From Pseudacidovorax sp. (GTDB lineage Bacteria; Pseudomonadota; Gammaproteobacteria; Burkholderiales; Burkholderiaceae_C), in assembly GCF_017991995.1 (NCBI RefSeq), contig NZ_JAGOPN010000004.1:1-64000 (forward strand): a DNA stretch of 64,000 nt, in the 5' to 3' direction. Below are positions 35,335 through 44,273 of this stretch, one piece after another. The notes below the pieces were generated by a model, which ran no database searches, was not told the DNA's origin, and saw nothing but the letters and a program-made list of their open reading frames with translations. Within the stretch, counting starts at the first letter, position 1, and each line of letters opens with the position of its first letter. The translations under genes were made by a program, and so were the position numbers.

Positions 35335-36165
35335 ATGCCTTCCGCCACGGCCGACGACGCCCCCCGCCTGCCCACGCATGTACTCGTCACCGGCGCGGCC
35401 GGCGGCATCGGCCGCGGCATCTGCCTGGCGCTGGCCCGGCAGGCCCGGCGCGCCGGCAGCGCGCTGCACATCAGCGCGGCGGCCAGCCAGCCCGGCGACA
35501 AGCTGGAGCGGCTGCTGGATGAACTGCGCGCCGAGGGCGTCACGGCCGGCGGCGTCACCGGCGACCTGACCCAGCCCGACGCCTGCCGCGCCCTCGTGGC
35601 CCAGGCGCAGGACGCGGCCGGCGACCTGGGTGCGCTGGTGTGCAACGCCGGTGCCTCGGGCCCGGGCCGCCTCGCCGACCTCACGGTCGAGCAGTGGGAC
35701 CACACCTTCCACCTCAACACCCGCAGCGCCTGGCTGCTGGCGCAGGCTGCCCGGCCGCAACTGGCGCGCACCCGCGGCAGCATCACCGCCATCGCCTCCA
35801 TGTCGGGGCTGATGCCGCACCCGGGCTATGGCGCCTATTCACCGGCCAAGGCCGCCCTCGTCATGCTGTGCCGCCAACTGGCGCAGGAATGGGCGGCCGA
35901 CGGCATCCGCGTCAACGCCGTCTGCCCCGGCATGATCCGCACCCCGCTCACCGAGGCCGTCTACCAGGACGACGCCACCCACCAGGCCCGCCGCGTCCTG
36001 GTGCCCCTGGGCCGCATCGGCACCGCCGACGACGTGGGCGAGGTGGTGGCCTTCCTCACCAGCCCCGGCGCTGCGTATGTGACCGGGCAGGCGCTGACGG
36101 TGGATGGGGGCGTGGCGGAGCACATGCTGGGGATGATTCCGGGGAGGCCGGGGAAGGGGGCGTAG
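35335..36165 (+). CDS. Short-chain dehydrogenase/reductase
   Basis: This 276-residue SDR has TGAAGGIG (19-26), CNAG (103-106, Cys in place of the first Asn), a Ser in IASMSG and YSPAK (Tyr168, Lys172). The end reads YVTGQALTVDGG. It most resembles the first SDR of the locus (same APGMIRT-like PGMIRTPLTEAVYQ and C-terminal MIPGRPG/MVPRPG tails), suggesting duplication within the pathway. The ATG at 35335 lacks a strong site. A GTG at 35320, overlapping the binding-protein stop, is an alternative. Last gene of the plus-strand operon. Confidence 0.88.
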   Translation: MPSATADDAPRLPTHVLVTGAAGGIGRGICLALARQARRAGSALHISAAASQPGDKLERLLDELRAEGVTAGGVTGDLTQPDACRALVAQAQDAAGDLGALVCNAGASGPGRLADLTVEQWDHTFHLNTRSAWLLAQAARPQLARTRGSITAIASMSGLMPHPGYGAYSPAKAALVMLCRQLAQEWAADGIRVNAVCPGMIRTPLTEAVYQDDATHQARRVLVPLGRIGTADDVGEVVAFLTSPGAAYVTGQALTVDGGVAEHMLGMIPGRPGKGA

Positions 36166-36201
36166 TGCGGCGGCCGAGCAGGGGTTGCGAATGCCGTGGC
36201 G

Positions 36202-36678
36202 TTACGCGACCGCGTTGTTTTTGATGTCAAAGCTGCCGACGACGGTCCCTGCGCTGCCTCCGGATGCGTTTTGCATCAGGTATTCCTGCTTGATCTTGGC
36301 AAAGGACAGGTGGATTTCTTCGAAATGACCGCCACCGCCGCCGCATGGGCTCACCTTCGTGATCAGCACGTCGGAAAGCGTGATTTTCATGAAGTCGAGC
36401 GGAAGGCCCCCTGCCTTTCTCAACGTCAAGACAGCCTGGGCGAAGCGCCTGCCAGCAAAGCAGGCCGTCATCAGCCCAGGGGACGCTCGATCAATGTTGT
36501 GGATCAGCTCCATGTCATGGGCCGTCGCTTTCGGAGCGCCGCCGCCCGAGCCGCTCATCATTCGTCCCTCCTGATGAACCGCCCAGCTCCACGACGTGAT
36601 GTCTATTTCTCCGAGATGCTTGGAGTCCTGCGATTCACCGGTGATGCCGTCTATTTTTAGAAAGATATCCGAGGCCAT
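36202..36678 (-). CDS. hcp: Hcp-family type VI secretion tube protein
   Basis: This 158-residue protein has the Hcp pattern. It starts ASDIFLKIDGITGESQDSKH, continues EIDITSWSWAVHQEG, has a variable middle and the strands FMKITLSDVLITKVSP and EEIHLSFAKIKQEYL near the end. Hcp hexamers stack into the T6SS tube and carry effectors in their lumen. No other T6SS structural genes are in the window, so this is an orphan hcp that must use a system encoded elsewhere. It lies 15 bases after the immunity candidate, in the order effector, immunity, hcp. Its base composition is lower in GC than the flanking catabolic genes. Confidence 0.93.
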   Translation of the reverse strand: MASDIFLKIDGITGESQDSKHLGEIDITSWSWAVHQEGRMMSGSGGGAPKATAHDMELIHNIDRASPGLMTACFAGRRFAQAVLTLRKAGGLPLDFMKITLSDVLITKVSPCGGGGGHFEEIHLSFAKIKQEYLMQNASGGSAGTVVGSFDIKNNAVA

Positions 36679-36693
36679 TGATTTCCCTTGAGT

Positions 36694-36981
36694 TTAGCGA
36701 ATTATTTTGAGCCAGCCGTAAAACCGGAATGCGAGGTACACGGCAATAGGAAACCAAAGAATGACCAACGAATTGATCGCCGTGAATTCCATCTCTTCCA
36801 CGCCGATATAGTTCATCAGTCCGAAAATGTCCAGCCATCCTACGATTCGCAGCCAACCATAGAAGGTGCTGTCTGAGCTATAAATCAGCCATGCGCTGGC
36901 GAGGACGCCCGCTGGCCATACGCAAATAAAAAGCAGAGTGGCCAACGACGCGCGTACTGCCCTCGAGGTCAAGACCTTCAT
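36694..36981 (-). CDS. Small membrane protein, candidate immunity protein for the Tlde1-like effector
   Basis: This 95-residue protein begins MKVLTSRAVRASLATLLFIC and has three hydrophobic segments (about 10-33, 43-60 and 68-88). Its ATG overlaps the effector stop codon by four bases (ATGA), the tightest possible coupling. Position and membrane/periplasm topology fit an immunity protein against a peptidoglycan-targeting effector, but I recognise no family. The function is inferred from context. Confidence 0.7.
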   Translation of the reverse strand: MKVLTSRAVRASLATLLFICVWPAGVLASAWLIYSSDSTFYGWLRIVGWLDIFGLMNYIGVEEMEFTAINSLVILWFPIAVYLAFRFYGWLKIIR

Positions 36982-37466
36982 TCGGTCACCTCGACGACGC
37001 CGTATGCCAAGCCCGTTCCGTCGGGTATCGGCATGCGGACGGTCCCAAGCAGCCTCTTGCGCAGCCTGCTGAAGGCGGCTTTGTCGGAAAGTGTGATGCA
37101 CCCCTCGCTGATATTCAGACGGCCATGCGGATGCAGCCTGAAGTTTCCCCTGCGGACGCCATTCACAAAAGTTTCGTCGTCGACCGTTCCATCGTCTCGG
37201 TACAGGGCGAACCATGTGGAATGATCGTTGTCGTTGACCCAGTCGACGGCGGATGTGTAAAGCCTGGAGAAGAATCCCCCGCTGCCTCTGTCGACGATGT
37301 AATACCTTCCCACAGGGAGAGGCCCCACGCCCGGCTTGTCAGAATAGTCGGCGTTGTTTTTGGAGCTTCCGTCCCTGCCCGAAAATGCGGCGAACTCGCC
37401 GACGCCTTCGCATCGCAGCGAAGACAGTTCACGTTGGTCCAATTTGAATTTGCAGTTGATAGGCAT
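36978..37466 (-). CDS. Tlde1-like (DUF2778) T6SS effector, L,D-transpeptidase-type
   Basis: This protein of about 162 residues matches the DUF2778/Tlde1 group, T6SS effectors that cleave or exchange D-amino acids on peptidoglycan stems. Visible features are CEGVGEFAAFSGRDG (19-33), GVGPLPVGRYYIVDRGSGG (47-64) and the catalytic region RLHPHGRLNISEGCITLS with His112/His114 and Cys123 of the SxGC motif. I prefer the ATG at 37466 (MPINCKFKLDQ); one at 37487 would add seven residues. There is no signal peptide, as expected for cargo loaded into Hcp. It is followed by an overlapping membrane protein and hcp. Confidence 0.88.
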   Translation of the reverse strand: MPINCKFKLDQRELSSLRCEGVGEFAAFSGRDGSSKNNADYSDKPGVGPLPVGRYYIVDRGSGGFFSRLYTSAVDWVNDNDHSTWFALYRDDGTVDDETFVNGVRRGNFRLHPHGRLNISEGCITLSDKAAFSRLRKRLLGTVRMPIPDGTGLAYGVVEVTE

Positions 37467-37679
37467 GCTGGGGCCTATTTTCTGCATTGCTTTTCATCAG
37501 AAAGGGGATGCCACAAACGCTAACGAGTTTGTACGCTAAACATTTCCGGAAAAAACTGGAGTGATGCTTTCGAATTCGGTGCTGTAGGGGCGCGAAGGCG
37601 CCGAGCGGCTGCGCCGACTCCTGGCAGCGCGCGCCGAGGGCCGGTCCAGCGCGACGGCACAGGCGAAGGCGCGCCGCGT

Positions 37680-38912
37680 TTATCGGGCGTAGGCGAGCCC
37701 TTCTTCCCAAGCCTGCGCCAGTTGCTCGCGCAGCGCCGCCGTCACGCGCGTGTCGCCTTTGGCCTCTTCCAGCGTCGCGCGCATGGCCTCTGCGATCCGG
37801 ACCAACACTTCGGCGGGCTGCGCAACACCGCATACCCGGCGGCCAAAGTCCACCAACTCATCGGTCGTCGGATACGCCTTGGTCTGGTGCTTGCCCGCGA
37901 ACAGCTTCAGCGCAAGGGTGCGGTCCTCCAACTCAGGTCCGCCCGGCGAGCGGGCGTACCTGTAGATGGAGGTCGTGACGACATCGAACATGGGCGCCAG
38001 CCACATCTCTTCGCGGGAGCGATAGAGCAATCCGAAGTTCTTGAGGTGCGCATCGCCGTTGTGGACCATGACGGAAAAGGCCACCTGCTCGAAGAAGCGA
38101 TGCAGGTTGCTGCTGTGAAGCTGGAACTGACGCAGCAACTCGGCGACCCGCTGGTAGCTGCCCTGGTACTTGCGGTCCGACAGAACGTCGCGCACGCGCA
38201 GCCCCGCCAGCGCCGCAATGTCCTCGAAGCCAAGCCGCTCCACGGGGCCCTCCGCGTGGACGACCAGGTCGAAGCGGTCCAGAACCAGCATCTGCCCGTC
38301 GTCGGACAAAGCAAACGTCGGCACGTCGATGCCGGCGCGCCGCGCGGCGGTCAGGCACAGATATTCATTGGCCGCCAGTCCGGGGTAGGCAGGACTCGCC
38401 GCCTTGACGATGAGCGATGGGATGGGCACGGTCGGCCGGTCCGGCACCATGATCTTGGGCTGCATGCCTGCAATGCCCGCCCCCGTGCTCAGGTAGGCTG
38501 CCACCAGCTCGCTGAACACCTCTGGCGTGTACTGGGTGCGCAGCAGTTCTTGCTTGCTCAGCGTGCGTGGCAAAGCGGGCTGAGCCTGATCCGGCAGGCT
38601 GTACCCGAGCCGCCCAATTCCGTTGCGCCCGACCAGCGCCAGCATGTGCATGGGCGTCATTGGCTGCTTGGGAAACAGCTCGCGGATCCTCATGAACAGG
38701 TCGCCTTCGGGAAGGTTCTGGTCCATGGGCGGAAACAGGTCGCCGTCCTGCCAGCTCAGGCGCTCGCTGGGCGGCATCAGCAGGGCCACGGTGGGCTGCT
38801 CCGGCTCCGGCGACAGGTAGCGAAACTCGTACGTCGACGTCCGCAGCAACTGCCCTGCGTAGACAGCTTCTCCGATGGAGACGTCCAGCAGGCGAATCTT
38901 CTCAGGGAGCAT
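37680..38912 (-). CDS. hipA: HipA-family serine/threonine kinase toxin (module 1)
   Basis: This 410-residue HipA-like kinase would phosphorylate a translation factor (GltX in E. coli) and cause growth arrest unless bound by HipB. Motifs are MQPKIMVP (150-157, the ATP-site loop), LIVKAASPAYPGLAANEYLC with the ATP-binding Lys, LDRFD (211-215), catalytic NGDAHLKN (285-292) and metal-binding FD at 309-310. All key residues are present, so it looks functional. Its start overlaps the hipB stop by 11 bases. The 213 bases downstream of it, to the effector gene, hold nothing recognisable. Confidence 0.93.
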   Translation of the reverse strand: MLPEKIRLLDVSIGEAVYAGQLLRTSTYEFRYLSPEPEQPTVALLMPPSERLSWQDGDLFPPMDQNLPEGDLFMRIRELFPKQPMTPMHMLALVGRNGIGRLGYSLPDQAQPALPRTLSKQELLRTQYTPEVFSELVAAYLSTGAGIAGMQPKIMVPDRPTVPIPSLIVKAASPAYPGLAANEYLCLTAARRAGIDVPTFALSDDGQMLVLDRFDLVVHAEGPVERLGFEDIAALAGLRVRDVLSDRKYQGSYQRVAELLRQFQLHSSNLHRFFEQVAFSVMVHNGDAHLKNFGLLYRSREEMWLAPMFDVVTTSIYRYARSPGGPELEDRTLALKLFAGKHQTKAYPTTDELVDFGRRVCGVAQPAEVLVRIAEAMRATLEEAKGDTRVTAALREQLAQAWEEGLAYAR

Positions 38913-39180
38913 CGTCGTCGTCCTGGAACCGCGCTGCGACTTCGCCGGCAGAGGGCAGCCCGGACCGTTCCAGCCGCAGTGCCAGACCGAGTGCGCCCAA
39001 CACGGCCAGAAGGGAGGACACCGTGGAGTCTTCGCCCGCTTCGAGCCGGTAGATGACTTCGCGGACCTTTCCCGCCTTCTCGGCGAGTTCGGACTTGTTC
39101 ATGCCCAGCGCTTCGCGTTGCTCGCGTAGCTGGCGGCCGAGCTCGTCCGGGAGCCTGATTTTGTCAGTCATAACTGGCAT
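38902..39180 (-). CDS. hipB: HipB-family HTH antitoxin (module 1)
   Basis: This 92-residue Cro/CI-type regulator has the helix-turn-helix LREQREALGMNKSELAEKAG followed by VREVIYRLEAGEDSTVSSLL (about 18-58). The C-terminal tail is acidic (QDDDDAP). It should bind HipA and repress the pair. The start is either 39180 (MPVMTDK) or the ATG three codons on at 39171. Neither has a clear ribosome-binding site, so a leaderless mRNA is possible. Confidence 0.9.
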   Translation of the reverse strand: MPVMTDKIRLPDELGRQLREQREALGMNKSELAEKAGKVREVIYRLEAGEDSTVSSLLAVLGALGLALRLERSGLPSAGEVAARFQDDDDAP

Positions 39181-39522
39181 CGTAAGCTGTTTATGCGCAA
39201 TATGGCAGCTGCAGCTGACATGATCAACGCTGTTTGTGAGTGCCTCGTAAGAGATGGACGGTATGGTCGCCGCATGGCGGGCTCCTCAGCCGTCTACACA
39301 GACCCCCGCCACAAGGCCGTTCTATGCTGGTGCCGGCAGCCGCATCGTTACTGCCACCACGCATGCAAAGTAGGTGTCTTCTCACCTGACCGGCACCTGC
39401 TGTGAAGGGCAGCGAAAACGGTTGTTGGGAGGTCGGCAGCGCGAAGCCAGTATGTCTAGCGAACCTAGCCATATAGGCGACGTCATGACTTGATTTGCTT
39501 GGTAAGCTAGAACATCTCTATT

Positions 39523-39533
39523 ATCCAAGTCAA
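39523..39533. repeat. Left copy of an 11-bp inverted repeat flanking the AT-rich segment
   Basis: ATCCAAGTCAA here is the exact reverse complement of TTGACTTGGAT at 41754-41764. The two copies bracket the GHKL-nuclease gene. They may be remnants of an insertion event or chance. Confidence 0.4.
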
Positions 39534-39604
39534 GACAACAAGAATTTCTTCAATTCATTTATTTGAACTAAATCACATTTGAGCGTGCGCGTAGGAAAAG
39601 ACGT

Positions 39605-39617
39605 AGAATTAAATTCT
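39605..39617. promoter_or_regulatory. Perfect palindrome upstream of the GHKL-nuclease gene
   Basis: AGAATT-A-AATTCT is a perfect 13-bp inverted repeat, 55 bases before the start codon, in a suitable place for an operator. No dedicated regulator is adjacent except HipB, which is encoded divergently about 430 bases away. Confidence 0.35.
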
Positions 39618-39671
39618 CATGAGATATCGCGCTTCATTCAATGCCTTGTCTAACCTTATTTGGGGTAACTG

Positions 39672-41702
39672 ATGAGCAATATTGTCATTAAACGAGCGGT
39701 AAGTAATATAACTGAGAAAACATCGATTTTCACTCCGATTGTCGAAGCCGTTGTAAATTCGATCCAGGCCATCCAGGCAGGCACTGAAAAGAACGGATTA
39801 ATTCAAATAACTTTGAAGAGGAATCGGCAGCTCGATTTGGATGGAACTCAAAGCAGCCGAGGAATTGAAGAGATAAGAATTGAGGATAACGGCGTTGGAT
39901 TTAACAATGAAAATCAAGAGTCTTTCGACACACTTTATAGCGAACTAAAAATTGCGGATGGTGGCAAGGGTTTTGGGCGCCTCACTTATTTAAAATACTT
40001 TGATCATGTCTGGGTAGAGTCGACCTATAAAGCAAGTGACTCTTCCTACTGGGATTTAAGTTTTAAGATGGGAGATGAAAAGCACTTCATAGTCGAAAGA
40101 AATCTTACTGCTTCCAACTCTAGTAGGGCGAGGACGACTGTTCGCCTTAGTGGACTGAAAAAGAAGTCAGCGATCAATCAGTCCGCCAAACAGATTGCCA
40201 GGAATTTAGTTGAACTCTTACTTCCTTATTTCATTACTGACGAGTATGAGTGCCCTAAGATTGTGCTAATGGAAGAGGATGGATCGGAACTAATCACGCT
40301 TAATGAATATTTGTCCAGCGAGCAAGCGGTTATCCAGGAGGTTTTTCTTCCACAAAGTGATTTCAGAATAGCTGCGGGAGCAGAGACTCACAATTTTAAA
40401 ATCAGAACATTTAAAATTTATTCGCCTGGCTCCAAGGTAAGTAAGGTCAGCTTGGTTGCGGATAAGAGAGAAGTGGAGACTGCTTTTCTCAGCCGCTACA
40501 TCCCGGAATTCGAAGACGAATTTTTCGATCCTGCTCCAGCTGACAATTCACTCGTTGCTCGAAATTTCATTCTAAAGACTTACGTATTTGGCCGATATCT
40601 CGATGAAAATGTTTCATTAGAGAGGGGTGGATTTAGGTTCCGTAAAGAGCGCTTGGAGGATCCAGCGCTCTATGAAGAAGTTTGCCAGACGGATATCGAA
40701 AAAGAGGCCGCTAGATTAACTGCCATAGCATTTCAGGGAGAACTAAGCTCCCGTTCCGAGCGCAAGAAAATAATAATTTCAGATTATGTCGACAACAATG
40801 CACCCTGGCATCGCGAAGCTCTTAATCAGGTCGATCTCAATGAGTTTAGTATGCATCCCAAGCCTGAAGAAATTGAGGCAGTTCTCCACAAGCAGCAATT
40901 CAAAGCGGAGACTCTGCTCCGCGCTCGGATTAAAAATATCCTGAAGGAGGATCAGCCTAGCAATTTAAATGAGGAAAGCGCCAGCTCAATCGCAAAAAAT
41001 ATTACAGAAAAGAGCAAGAGTGAATTAATACACTATGTTGTTTTACGCAAATATTTGCTCGATCTTTTAGAAAGAAGATTGGAATATAAGGATGATAATC
41101 GCCACTACACCGAGGGTGCAGTACACGACATAATTTTCCCAAGAAAAAAAGATACAGATACTATTTCGTACGACGAGCATAACCTCTGGATATTGGACGA
41201 AAGATTAAGCTTCACGAACTATGTTTCATCAGATATTCCGTTGGATGGAATTAGATCTGATAGAGGGGATGTTATCGTCTATGGAAATCGCATCGCAATG
41301 CGTGGAGAAAATATATCCACGAATCCTATTACGATATTTGAATTCAAGCGGCCCGGCCGAGACGATTTTGCGGACCCATCTTCTGATGAGGATCCAATTG
41401 CACAAATCGTCAGGTACGCCAACAAAATAAGGGATAAAAAATTCAGAACCCCGCCTGGACGCCCAATGGAGGTAACTTCTACTACCCCTTTTTACGGCTA
41501 TGTCGTGTGTGATTTCACGCCTAAAGTGGAAGAGTGGTTGGAGCGAGAGAAGAGCTTTACTCCCATGCCGGACAGAAAAGGGTGGTTTTCCTATCTTGCA
41601 GGGCCAAAAATTTACATCGAGGTATTAAGCTGGGACAAGGTCCTAAGAGACGCCGTTATAAGAAACAAGGTATTTTTTTATAAACTTGGGATCGATAATT
41701 GA
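39672..41702 (+). CDS. GHKL (Hsp90/MORC-like) ATPase fused to a PD-(D/E)XK nuclease-like domain
   Basis: This 676-residue protein is not one I can name. The N-terminus has all Bergerat ATP-site motifs: Glu25/Asn29 (EAVVNS), D72xG74xG76 (EDNGVGF), GGKGFGR (97-103) and Thr155/156 (ARTTVRL). It therefore resembles Hsp90, MutL and MORC rather than sensor kinases. The middle (about 170-470) is alpha-helical and charged. The C-terminus has HNLWILDERLSF (503-514), then Asp533 (RGD), E557-F-K559 (TIFEFKRP) and Q578-x3-Y582 (QIVRY), the D...ExK...QxxxY order of PD-(D/E)XK nucleases. The gene is strongly AT-rich, with AGA, ATA and TTA codons absent from its neighbours, so it was acquired. It stands alone between hipBA and htpG. 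Inferred role: a nucleic-acid-targeting defence factor. Confidence 0.8.
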   Translation: MSNIVIKRAVSNITEKTSIFTPIVEAVVNSIQAIQAGTEKNGLIQITLKRNRQLDLDGTQSSRGIEEIRIEDNGVGFNNENQESFDTLYSELKIADGGKGFGRLTYLKYFDHVWVESTYKASDSSYWDLSFKMGDEKHFIVERNLTASNSSRARTTVRLSGLKKKSAINQSAKQIARNLVELLLPYFITDEYECPKIVLMEEDGSELITLNEYLSSEQAVIQEVFLPQSDFRIAAGAETHNFKIRTFKIYSPGSKVSKVSLVADKREVETAFLSRYIPEFEDEFFDPAPADNSLVARNFILKTYVFGRYLDENVSLERGGFRFRKERLEDPALYEEVCQTDIEKEAARLTAIAFQGELSSRSERKKIIISDYVDNNAPWHREALNQVDLNEFSMHPKPEEIEAVLHKQQFKAETLLRARIKNILKEDQPSNLNEESASSIAKNITEKSKSELIHYVVLRKYLLDLLERRLEYKDDNRHYTEGAVHDIIFPRKKDTDTISYDEHNLWILDERLSFTNYVSSDIPLDGIRSDRGDVIVYGNRIAMRGENISTNPITIFEFKRPGRDDFADPSSDEDPIAQIVRYANKIRDKKFRTPPGRPMEVTSTTPFYGYVVCDFTPKVEEWLEREKSFTPMPDRKGWFSYLAGPKIYIEVLSWDKVLRDAVIRNKVFFYKLGIDN

Positions 41703-41720
41703 TATTAAAATTGAGGCGAT

Positions 41721-41742
41721 AAAAAAGGGCGCAATGGCGCCC
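41721..41742 (-). terminator. Terminator of htpG, possibly bidirectional
   Basis: On the minus strand, GGGCGC-CATT-GCGCCC is followed by TTTTTTA, a strong intrinsic terminator 22 bases after the htpG stop. On the plus strand the same stem is followed by CTTTTCTT and could end the GHKL-nuclease transcript. Confidence 0.85.
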
Positions 41743-41753
41743 CTTTTCTTGGA

Positions 41754-41764
41754 TTGACTTGGAT
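41754..41764. repeat. Right copy of the 11-bp inverted repeat flanking the AT-rich segment
   Basis: TTGACTTGGAT, overlapping the last base of the htpG stop codon, is the reverse complement of 39523-39533. It marks the point where normal high-GC coding sequence resumes. Confidence 0.4.
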
Positions 41765-43758
41765 TAAACCAACAACGCATTCACCCTTCGCACATAAGCC
41801 GCCGGATCCTCCGGCAGCCCCCCTTCGGCCAGCAGCGCCTGATCGAACAGGATGTTCGCCAGGTCATCGAAGTGCGCCTCGTCGCGCTCCAGCTTCTTGA
41901 CCAGCGGGTGCTCGGCGTTCACTTCCAGCACGGGCTTGACCTCGGGGGCCTTCTGGCCGGCCTGCTTGAGCATGCGGGCCAGTTGCGTGCTCATGCCGTG
42001 CTCCTGCACCACCAGGCAGGCGGGCGAGTCGACCAGACGGGTGGTCACGCGCACGTCTTCGGCCTTGTCCTTGAGCGAGGCCTTCAGCTTTTCCAGCACC
42101 GGCTTGAAGGCTTCGGCGGCCTCTTCGGCGGCCTTCTTCTCGGTCTCGTCCTGCAGCTTGCCCAGGTCCACCGCGCCCTTCGCCACGCTCTGCAGCGGCG
42201 TGCCGTCGAACTCGGTCAGGTACGACAGCGCCCATTCGTCCACGCGGTCGGTCATCAGCAGCACCTCGATGCCCTTCTTCTTGAAGACCTCGAGCTGCGG
42301 GCTGTTCTTGGCGGCGGCCAGGGTGTCGGCGGTGATGTAGTAGATGGCCTCCTGGCCGTCCTTCATGCGCGCCTTGTAGTCGGCCAGCGAGACGGTGGCC
42401 GCGTCGCTGGTAGTGGAGGCAAAGCGCAGCAGCTTGGCGATGCGGTCGCGGTTGGCAAAGTCCTCGCCCAGGCCTTCCTTGAGCACCGAGCCGAACTCGG
42501 CATAGAACTTGGCGTACTTGCCGGCGTCCTCGCTGGCCTTGGCGGCGTCAGCGTCGGCCTGCTCGCCTTCCTTCTTGTCGACCACGTCGGTCACGCCGTC
42601 GGCGGCCGGCGTTTCAGCGGGCGCCGCAGCGGCAGCGGCCTTCTTGGCCAGGTCTTCCAGCATCGACAGCACGCGCTTGGTGCTGCCGTCGCGGATCGCC
42701 TTCACGTCGCGGCTTTCCTGCAGCAGTTCTCGGCTGACGTTCAGCGGCAGGTCGGCCGAATCGATCACGCCCTTCACGAAGCGCAGGTACGAGGGCAGCA
42801 GCGCCTCAGCCTCGTCCATGATGAACACGCGCTTGACGTACAGCTTGAGGCCGCCCTTGTGGTCGCGGTTCCACAGGTCCATGGGCGCCTTGGCCGGGAT
42901 GTACAGCAGCTGCGTGTACTCGGTGCTGCCTTCCACGCGGTTGTGGCTCCAGGCCAGCGGCGCTTCGTAGTCGTGGCTGATGCTCTTGTAGAACTCGACG
43001 TACTGCTCTTCGCTCACGTCCTTCTTGGCGCGGGTCCACAGGGCGCTGGCCTTGTTGACGGGCTCCCACTCGCCGGTGGCGACCATCTCGCCGCCCTTGT
43101 CGTCCTCGCCTTCCTTCCACTCTTCCTTCTCCATCAGGATGGGCAGGGAGATGTGGTCCGAATACTTGCCGATGACCTGCTTGAGCTTCCAGCCGTTGAG
43201 GAATTCGTCGGCGTCCTCGCGCAGGTGCAGGATCACGCTGGTGCCGCGCTTCTCGCGGGCGATGGTCTCGACCTCGAAGTCGCCGGTGCCGGTGCTGCTC
43301 CAGCGCACGCCCTGGTCGGCCGGCAGCCCGGCGCGGCGCGACTCGACCACGATGCGGTCGGCCACGATGAAGCCCGAGTAGAAGCCCACGCCGAACTGGC
43401 CGATGAGCTGCGCGTCGGCCTTCTGGTCGCCCGACAGGCGGCTCATGAACTCGCGCGTGCCGCTCTTGGCGATGGTGCCGAGGTGGTCGATGGCCTCCTG
43501 CTGCGACAGGCCGATGCCGTTGTCGGTGATGCTCAGGGTGCGGGCCTTCTTGTCGAAGGCGACGCGCACTTCGAGGTTGGGCGCGTCTTCATAAAGGGCC
43601 GCGTTGTCCAGGGCCTCGAAGCGCAGCTTGTCGCAGGCGTCGGAGGCGTTGGAGATCAGCTCGCGAAGGAAGATCTCCTTGTTGGAGTAGAGCGAGTGGG
43701 TGACCAGGTGCAGGAGCTGGGCCACTTCGGCCTGGAAGGAATGGGTGTTCTTGCTCAT
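41764..43758 (-). CDS. htpG: Molecular chaperone HtpG (Hsp90)
   Basis: HtpG is the bacterial Hsp90, an ATP-driven dimeric chaperone. The 664-residue protein has the N-terminal ATP domain ([43 protein letters not shown]), the middle domain with [20 protein letters not shown], and a C-terminal dimerisation domain. An Ala/Pro/Asp/Glu-rich insertion of about 50 residues (starting near [15 protein letters not shown]) sits after the middle-domain helix and is longer than in E. coli HtpG. It converges with the unrelated but also GHKL-type gene at 39672. Conserved chromosomal gene, not part of the foreign segment. Confidence 0.97.
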
Positions 43759-43789
43759 GTCGTGCTGCTAAGTGGTTGAAATGCCGCCC

Positions 43790-43821
43790 AAAAACGGAAA
43801 CGCCCCCAAAGCTTGGGGGCG
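43790..43821 (-). terminator. Terminator between the repeat protein gene and htpG
   Basis: A 9-bp perfect stem (CGCCCCCAA / TTGGGGGCG) with a three-base loop at 43801-43821 is followed, on the minus strand, by TTTCCGTTTTT. It lies about 100 bases past the stop of the upstream minus-strand gene and 43 bases before the htpG start. Confidence 0.7.
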
Positions 43822-43919
43822 GTGGGCGGATTATCAACCCCCCTGTCGCGGCCCGAATCGGCCGGACGGGGCAGGCGGTCCGACCGGCGCCAGGGCACCG
43901 GCGGAGCGCGCAGCGGCGC

Positions 43920-44273
43920 TCAGTTGAGCGGCAGCGAGGTCGACTGGCCGATGGCCTCGGTGCCGGCCGGGTGCGCGGCGGCGATGGCGTCGGCCTGGGC
44001 GCGGCTGCCGTCGCCCGGTTGCAGCAGGGCGGGCATCACGGTCGATTGGCCGACGGCCTCGGTGCCCACGGGATGGGCGGCGGCCATGGCACCGGTGTTG
44101 ACTTCGTCGCGCGACATCGTCGAGTTGAGCGGGGCCATGCCGGTGGACTGGCCAATGGCCTCGCTGCCGCCGCCGTTCCAGGCGGATTGGGCCCAGGCGC
44201 CCACGGTGCCGGTGGCCAGAACAGTGCCCAGTGCCAGGCCGGCGGCCAGGCGGAAGGTTGCAGGTGCGCGCAT
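43920..44273 (-). CDS. Small exported protein with three GQST repeats
   Basis: This 117-residue protein (start at 44273, MRAPATFRLAAGLALG) has a signal peptide cut near AWA-QS. The mature part is built from three imperfect repeats: GGGSEAIGQSTGMAPLNS, AAAHPVGTEAVGQSTVMPAL and AAAHPAGTEAIGQSTSLPLN, joined by linkers containing SRDEVNTG and GDGSRAQADA. It has no cysteine. I do not know this family. It is next to, and on the same strand as, the two-component genes, with 81 bases between, so it may be part of their operon or regulon. An envelope or periplasmic role is likely. Confidence 0.75.
   Translation of the reverse strand: MRAPATFRLAAGLALGTVLATGTVGAWAQSAWNGGGSEAIGQSTGMAPLNSTMSRDEVNTGAMAAAHPVGTEAVGQSTVMPALLQPGDGSRAQADAIAAAHPAGTEAIGQSTSLPLN

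Follow-up and report, generated by a model that had tools for sequence, protein, structure and literature searches.

The question raised by this locus is what an AT-rich gene encodes in an otherwise GC-rich stretch of a Pseudacidovorax contig, and in particular whether its product is a defence nuclease that acts alone. The window (the whole stretch of 64,000 nucleotides that was analysed) has a GC content of 68.5%, compared with 42.2% for the gene (43.0% at third positions), and the lowest value for 2,031-base stretches starting outside 37700-41800 is 58.8%. Its GC content being foreign to the window, as a preliminary description of the DNA had claimed, the gene looks horizontally acquired. 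We consider it likely that the product is a defence nuclease of paraMORC3 architecture that acts by itself, came in by horizontal transfer and has a layout like that of VcSduA.

The open reading frame starts with ATG and encodes 676 residues. Homologues align with it over their full length, and the start falls in the same column in 29 of the 30 rows of alignment A1. The gene sits between HipBA, which runs in the opposite direction, and the convergent htpG (Table 1). The toxin-antitoxin and T6SS genes proposed as neighbours are indeed present (HipB/HipA, Hcp and a Tlde1-domain protein at 36202-39180), and with HipBA and htpG as immediate neighbours there is no obvious defence island. No methylase or helicase gene was found among the window ORFs adjoining the gene, nor any other adjoining partner, in line with the earlier proposal of a protein acting alone, likely in phage or plasmid defence. 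The Hcp and Tlde1-domain pair (36202-37487, minus strand), which adjoins HipBA, is possibly a T6SS Hcp with an L,D-transpeptidase-type effector. Counts of promoter-like and terminator-like sites do not clearly exceed those in shuffles (terminator-like patterns: 3 found, 2.6 expected), and Rfam gave no match at gathering scores in 36000-44000.

Table 1. Positions of the features discussed, in the window unless a locus is named
Feature	Position	Strand or direction	Evidence or remark
676-aa GHKL ATPase - S5 transducer - PD-(D/E)XK nuclease gene, paraMORC3 architecture	39672..41702	+	ORF, full-length homologues, models
GHKL/Bergerat ATPase domain, residues 1-180 (E25, N29, D72, G74, G76, G98, G100, G102)	39672..40211	+	sub-threshold HATPase_c, conservation, Hsp90/MORC fold matches
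S5-type transducer (middle) domain, residues ~190-310	40239..40601	+	strands and helices of the model, structural alignments
Helical connector from ATPase to nuclease, residues ~338-470	40683..41081	+	predicted helices; confidence lower after ~420
PD-(D/E)XK nuclease domain, residues ~475-676 (E481, D533, E557, K559, Q578, Y582)	41094..41699	+	invariant residues, fold matches
Terminator-like hairpin, 6 G-C pairs, T-rich tail	41727..41742	+	pattern scan only; between nuclease gene and htpG
htpG	41764-43758	convergent with nuclease gene	HSP90 Pfam domain PF00183 in product
HipB	38902-39180	opposite to nuclease gene	neighbour, one side
HipA	37680-38912	opposite to nuclease gene	neighbour, one side
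Tlde1-domain protein	36978-37487	-	Tlde1 domain, E 4.3e-32
Hcp	36202-36678	-	T6SS_HCP, E 3.5e-36
AAA_13 ATPase genes upstream of relatives	L069:6366-8984; L080:10930-13548; L022:5208-7865		

Two sets of motifs had been picked out in the protein, namely Bergerat motifs at residues 25-29, 72-76 and 97-103, and a C-terminal series of D533, E557-F-K559 and Q578-x3-Y582. Both were placed correctly, the ATPase motifs reading E25/N29, D72-N73-G74-V75-G76 and G97-G98-K99-G100-F101-G102-R103. In alignment A2, which has 53 rows (the window protein and 52 relatives that are 30-73% identical to it), E25, N29, D72, G74, G76, G98, G100, G102 and R103 are identical in every row, as are E481, D533, E557, K559, Q578 and Y582. 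Seven relatives from a branch of about 29% identity were added to give 60 rows, and the residues were recounted, R103 being left out; all are invariant except G98 (53/60). Judged from sequence, the ATPase and nuclease motifs are far beyond chance. At the position of G98, which belongs to the ATPase's second glycine motif, the seven Vibrio-type proteins (the P0241 group) have cysteine and the 53 rows glycine.

Profile libraries recognise the protein poorly. The Pfam HATPase_c match has an E value of 2.8e-4, below its cut-off, and neither HSP90 (PF00183), CW nor any other Pfam domain beyond HATPase was found. The window protein has no match in PADLOC-DB 2.0.0 (E<=1) or NCBIfam release 20 (E<=0.01), and five of its relatives have none in PADLOC. 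The A2 rows match 42 Pfam families, 25 of the 42 being listed; a stray SduA_C match is possible. Against PDB sequences, the A2 profile retrieved two weak histidine-kinase rows and nothing else.

Both folds are predicted from structural models. The ATPase model gives fold matches to Hsp90 and MORC, and most of the structural alignments to Hsp90, MORC, MutL and TopoVI-B reach model residues 355-400, past an S5 domain that is predicted to follow the GHKL domain. The connector has predicted helices at 339-353, 355-375, 378-386, 398-425, 434-447 and 452-469. For the C-terminal model Foldseek alone found no match at E<=1e-3, and a second-look aligner gave matches to Shedu, Nt.BspD6I, EndoMS and FokI, with Shedu SduA the nearest; the nearest folds are DNA nucleases. 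The model has pLDDT <50 at residues 526-536 and 538-548, D533 included, and modelling is weak more generally over residues 475-560. The C-terminal domain is predicted to have a restriction-endonuclease fold. Together with the conservation, these fold matches support the architecture first suggested, in which a GHKL module of Hsp90/MORC type is followed by a domain with a restriction-endonuclease fold. MORC, Hsp90, topoisomerase VI-B and MutL are related ATPases, but the window protein has a nuclease domain after the ATPase, and it differs from the Hsp90 encoded by the adjoining htpG in having no PF00183 domain.

A likeness to RecB/Cas4-like nucleases had been proposed. Shedu SduA comes first in our fold comparison, whereas the profile search of the 2008 paraMORC3 authors recovered RecB-family nucleases, according to the available text of their paper (PMC2292703). 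Canonical SduA (DUF4263; 8ti8/8ti9 from Bacillus cereus and 8ps4/8ps5 from Escherichia coli) shares the PD-(D/E)XK fold with the window protein but has no GHKL domain in the one protein scanned, and its SduA_C profile (PF14082) finds neither the window protein (E<=1) nor seven relatives (E<=0.1), compared with 1.3e-25 for canonical SduA in the same library. A PF14082 search of the genome that holds the window and 14 control genomes was silent everywhere and is uninformative, because the controls were silent too. Eight canonical SduA proteins gave a weak result in profile-profile comparison (probability 20%, E 0.0011; with the full-length alignment, probability 1%, E 0.052). As the SduA_C profile does not match, the window protein is at most a putative Shedu member.

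The preliminary description could not match the protein to a nameable system, and here it can be corrected. ParaMORC3 was defined in 2008 by Iyer, Abhiman and Aravind as GHKL plus S5 plus a C-terminal restriction-endonuclease-fold domain with E-D-ExK; in the accessible part of that paper (PMC2292703) it is sporadic, with some genes standing alone and others in restriction-modification (R-M) operons. The GHKL motifs, the S5 domain and the restriction-endonuclease-fold domain with E-D-ExK are all found in the window protein, in the same arrangement. It has the paraMORC3 architecture, the two being likened by layout, residues and fold.

The same layout has an experimental representative. VcSduA, reported in 2025 from the WASA lineage of V. 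cholerae, is a single phage-protective gene with an N-terminal GHKL and a C-terminal PD-(D/E)xK domain; protection is abolished by E27A in the ATPase and by K557A in the nuclease, and homologues occur in ~1.2% of the genomes examined. The portion of the paper at hand (PMC12137116) adds that proteins of this layout were earlier named paraMORC3, and assigns VcSduA to the Shedu family as type I-D, after Gu et al. 2025; a later review, as far as its available text goes, again calls it a Shedu system (PMC12409362). Its E27 and K557 have E25 and K559 as counterparts in the window protein, VcSduA being compared by layout and numbering only. A V. fluvialis relative (P0241, 672 residues) has the same architecture, with E27 and K556, and shares 29% identity with the window protein. 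In the parts available, another paper on paraMORC-like proteins is not relevant to the GHKL-nuclease layout (PMC8011034), and a HATPase system is mentioned in one figure legend (PMC13092281).

The gene had been called an orphan, which it is not: with the window protein as query, 1,093 proteins reached E<=1e-3, the 120 best of them being listed. With relatives from Flavisolibacter and V. fluvialis as queries the numbers were 2,786 and 2,532 (again E<=1e-3, with the best 120 of each listed), and the three sets may overlap. Among the best 120 of the 1,093, the nearest relatives with a named source are from Delftia, together with one labelled Nostoc (73%), and Comamonas (59%); names given to relatives at source include 'sensor histidine kinase' besides 'ATP-binding protein'. 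In draws of genomes, matches were found in 12 of 299 from its own family at E<=1e-3, six full-length (own included) and six partial and weak, with no match in three same-genus genomes listed in that draw. At E<=1e-20 they were found in 7 of 398 for the phylum, 6 of 399 for the order (including one fragment at a contig end), 2 of 369 for the class and 13 of 196 for another order (some partial). The own genome is counted in the family, phylum, order and class draws, and the centre genome in the other order. A quick tree of 76 rows places the window protein in a clade of 35 rows with Delftia, Comamonas, cyanobacterial and other proteins (SH-aLRT 100), and the Vibrio/Enterobacterales type, to which the P0241 group of ~29% identity belongs, in a separate clade of 13 rows (support 100); the deep order is unsure because several branches are long. 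In one homologue (G550:C42:59507-61502, L077), possibly a decayed copy, the coding sequence breaks near the 3' end into two frames that overlap.

Relatives also occur on mobile DNA. They were found in 57 plasmid records, 22 of which cover at least 80% of the query, all at less than 60% identity, in one phage record, and at six loci of viral contigs, in one case two ORFs ahead of a tape-measure gene. The distribution is sporadic and partly mobile.

At the DNA level the gene has no match in the stretch 3' of htpG in any of 12 genus relatives (stretches of 7.5-14 kb), and its candidacy as a companion of htpG was rejected on that ground. The surroundings of htpG are variable, since five close relatives carry different DNA there. 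Two keep HipBA beside htpG: in G1051 the hipB-htpG space is 2.5 kb and holds an XRE-Peptidase_M78 gene and an unknown ORF, and in G177 it is 1.7 kb and holds a PAAR-like ORF (below the Pfam cut-off) and unknown ORFs. G1057 is without HipBA there and has the same two ORFs as G1051, by sequence resemblance. In G1059 and G1056, beyond 0.2 kb and 3.5 kb of other DNA next to htpG, there follows sequence that corresponds to a different part of the window (about 13 kb). The alternatives between htpG and the next shared gene (39185-41765 in the window; L057, L058 and L060) are thus the nuclease gene, the XRE-Peptidase_M78 gene with its unknown ORF, or the PAAR-like ORFs; L059 and L061 have a wholly different neighbourhood 3' of htpG.

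Whether homologues lie in defence islands had been named as a check. We compared 15 homologue loci with 15 control stretches from the same genomes; 25 loci were fetched in two batches, of which 11 and 4 were used, and L070, L074, L080, L081, L098-L100, L103, L104 and L107 were left out because they had no control stretch. Flanks were 4 kb (reduced from 6, controls alike), which brought the ORFs from 131 to 92 and from 143 to 97. At E<=1e-15 the 92 neighbours matched 103 PADLOC families and the 97 control ORFs matched 5, the count being of families and not ORFs (one neighbour alone matches 28). Of the 103, 25 are listed; most of these model methyltransferases or type III restriction and have two members apiece, which presumably come from the two R-M operons described below; mad3 is matched by two ORFs in both sets, and Pfam also finds housekeeping genes among the neighbours (e.g., elongation factor G, GatB and ribosomal protein S7). 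The enrichment is supportive but uneven.

Particular neighbours bear on whether such proteins act alone. Two of the 25 loci, from two genomes, have an operon of SNF2 helicase, AIPR, GHKL-nuclease relative, N6/N4 methyltransferase and a ResIII protein; the latter matches RE_endonuc below its cut-off, and PADLOC type III R-M models fit the operon. A third locus (L081) has a 111-residue piece of methyltransferase just downstream of the relative. Some members may therefore not act alone. Partial helicase-type matches lie near the relatives in L003 and L022, a Rhodococcus plasmid has a relative near type I R-M genes, and on a V. fluvialis plasmid a type I R-M operon is followed by a canonical Shedu gene and then directly by a relative. 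The Shedu gene and the relative (L020:6574-9968) overlap by 4 bases, and the two nucleases are possibly co-expressed.

In three of the 25 loci (G032, G893 and a P. terrae plasmid) a gene for an AAA_13 ATPase of 872-885 residues lies directly upstream of the relative, overlapping it by 4 bases in G032 and G893 and 135 bases away on the plasmid. The partners in L069 and L022 are 32% identical and match the PADLOC candidate PDC-S06, from a series that we take to consist of single-gene candidates. A two-gene system with this ATPase was not adopted, given the PDC-S06 match, the presence of the partner on 184 plasmid records at E<=1e-20, and its absence from the window. These are probably two defence genes side by side, a two-gene variant being the less likely reading.

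The most likely activity of the window protein is that of an ATP-gated nuclease which, without a partner, restricts the DNA of phages or plasmids and so would protect its host. Two chains would dimerise, and ATP, on binding to the GHKL domains, would make them close in the manner of Hsp90 and MORC around DNA or a structure made by the phage. This change may be relayed by the S5 and helical parts to the C-terminal PD-(D/E)XK domains, which, as a pair, would cleave or nick the DNA of the invader. Canonical E. coli SduA recognises DNA ends through an N-terminal clamp of another kind, according to the available part of PMC12904381, and DNA ends or topology are therefore the first candidate triggers. 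A more specific version, which we put forward tentatively as one of the less likely readings, is a sensor of DNA topology or crossings in one polypeptide: a MORC/topoisomerase-VI-like clamp would use ATP to capture two DNA segments or a DNA end and license its own Shedu-type nuclease, and the trigger in the 35-row clade would differ from that of the Vibrio-type branch. If so, one gene would suffice for a task that takes several in multi-subunit systems such as Wadjet.

Other explanations were weighed against restriction by a single protein. PD-(D/E)XK domains can act on RNA as well as DNA, and the protein might instead act by abortive infection, attacking the DNA or RNA of the host when triggered so that the infected cell is killed or arrested. 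WonAB, in which a PD-(D/E)xK nuclease is paired with an ATPase of another kind, blocks translation, as mentioned in the accessible text of PMC12137116; however, cultures with VcSduA were protected at every MOI tested, which its authors read there as direct restriction with survival of the host, and the nearest folds here are DNA nucleases. We regard this as unlikely. Less likely again is that the protein is a subunit of an R-M complex encoded elsewhere in the genome, its GHKL domain looping DNA in aid of a separate helicase and nuclease. The operons and the L081 and L003/L022 matches described above fit such a role, and the paraMORCs are presented as R-M components by Iyer et al. 2008 in the text available (PMC2292703). 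Yet the window gene has no methylase or helicase beside it, the methyltransferase of the operon has no match in 21 of the 25 loci, the nuclease residues are intact, stand-alone paraMORC3 genes were already noted in 2008, and VcSduA protects as a single gene. Finally, proximity to htpG and a shared Hsp90-like ATPase fold could point to a housekeeping protein for DNA repair or of chaperone type, perhaps a companion of htpG. This is very improbable: the two genes are convergent, the gene has no DNA match in the stretch 3' of htpG in the 12 genus relatives, its product has no HSP90 Pfam domain, and the foreign GC content, sporadic distribution and carriage on plasmids and viral contigs all argue against it.

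A stand-alone defence nuclease thus remains the preferred reading, and the window protein is a new member of an already described family, with a layout known since 2008 and a tested representative since 2025. The family is widespread, yet PADLOC-DB 2.0.0 and NCBIfam miss this protein, and Pfam sees its ATPase below threshold and leaves the nuclease unmatched. VcSduA having already been tested, the clade of the window protein is a diverged system in which to study how a nuclease may be gated by a GHKL clamp.
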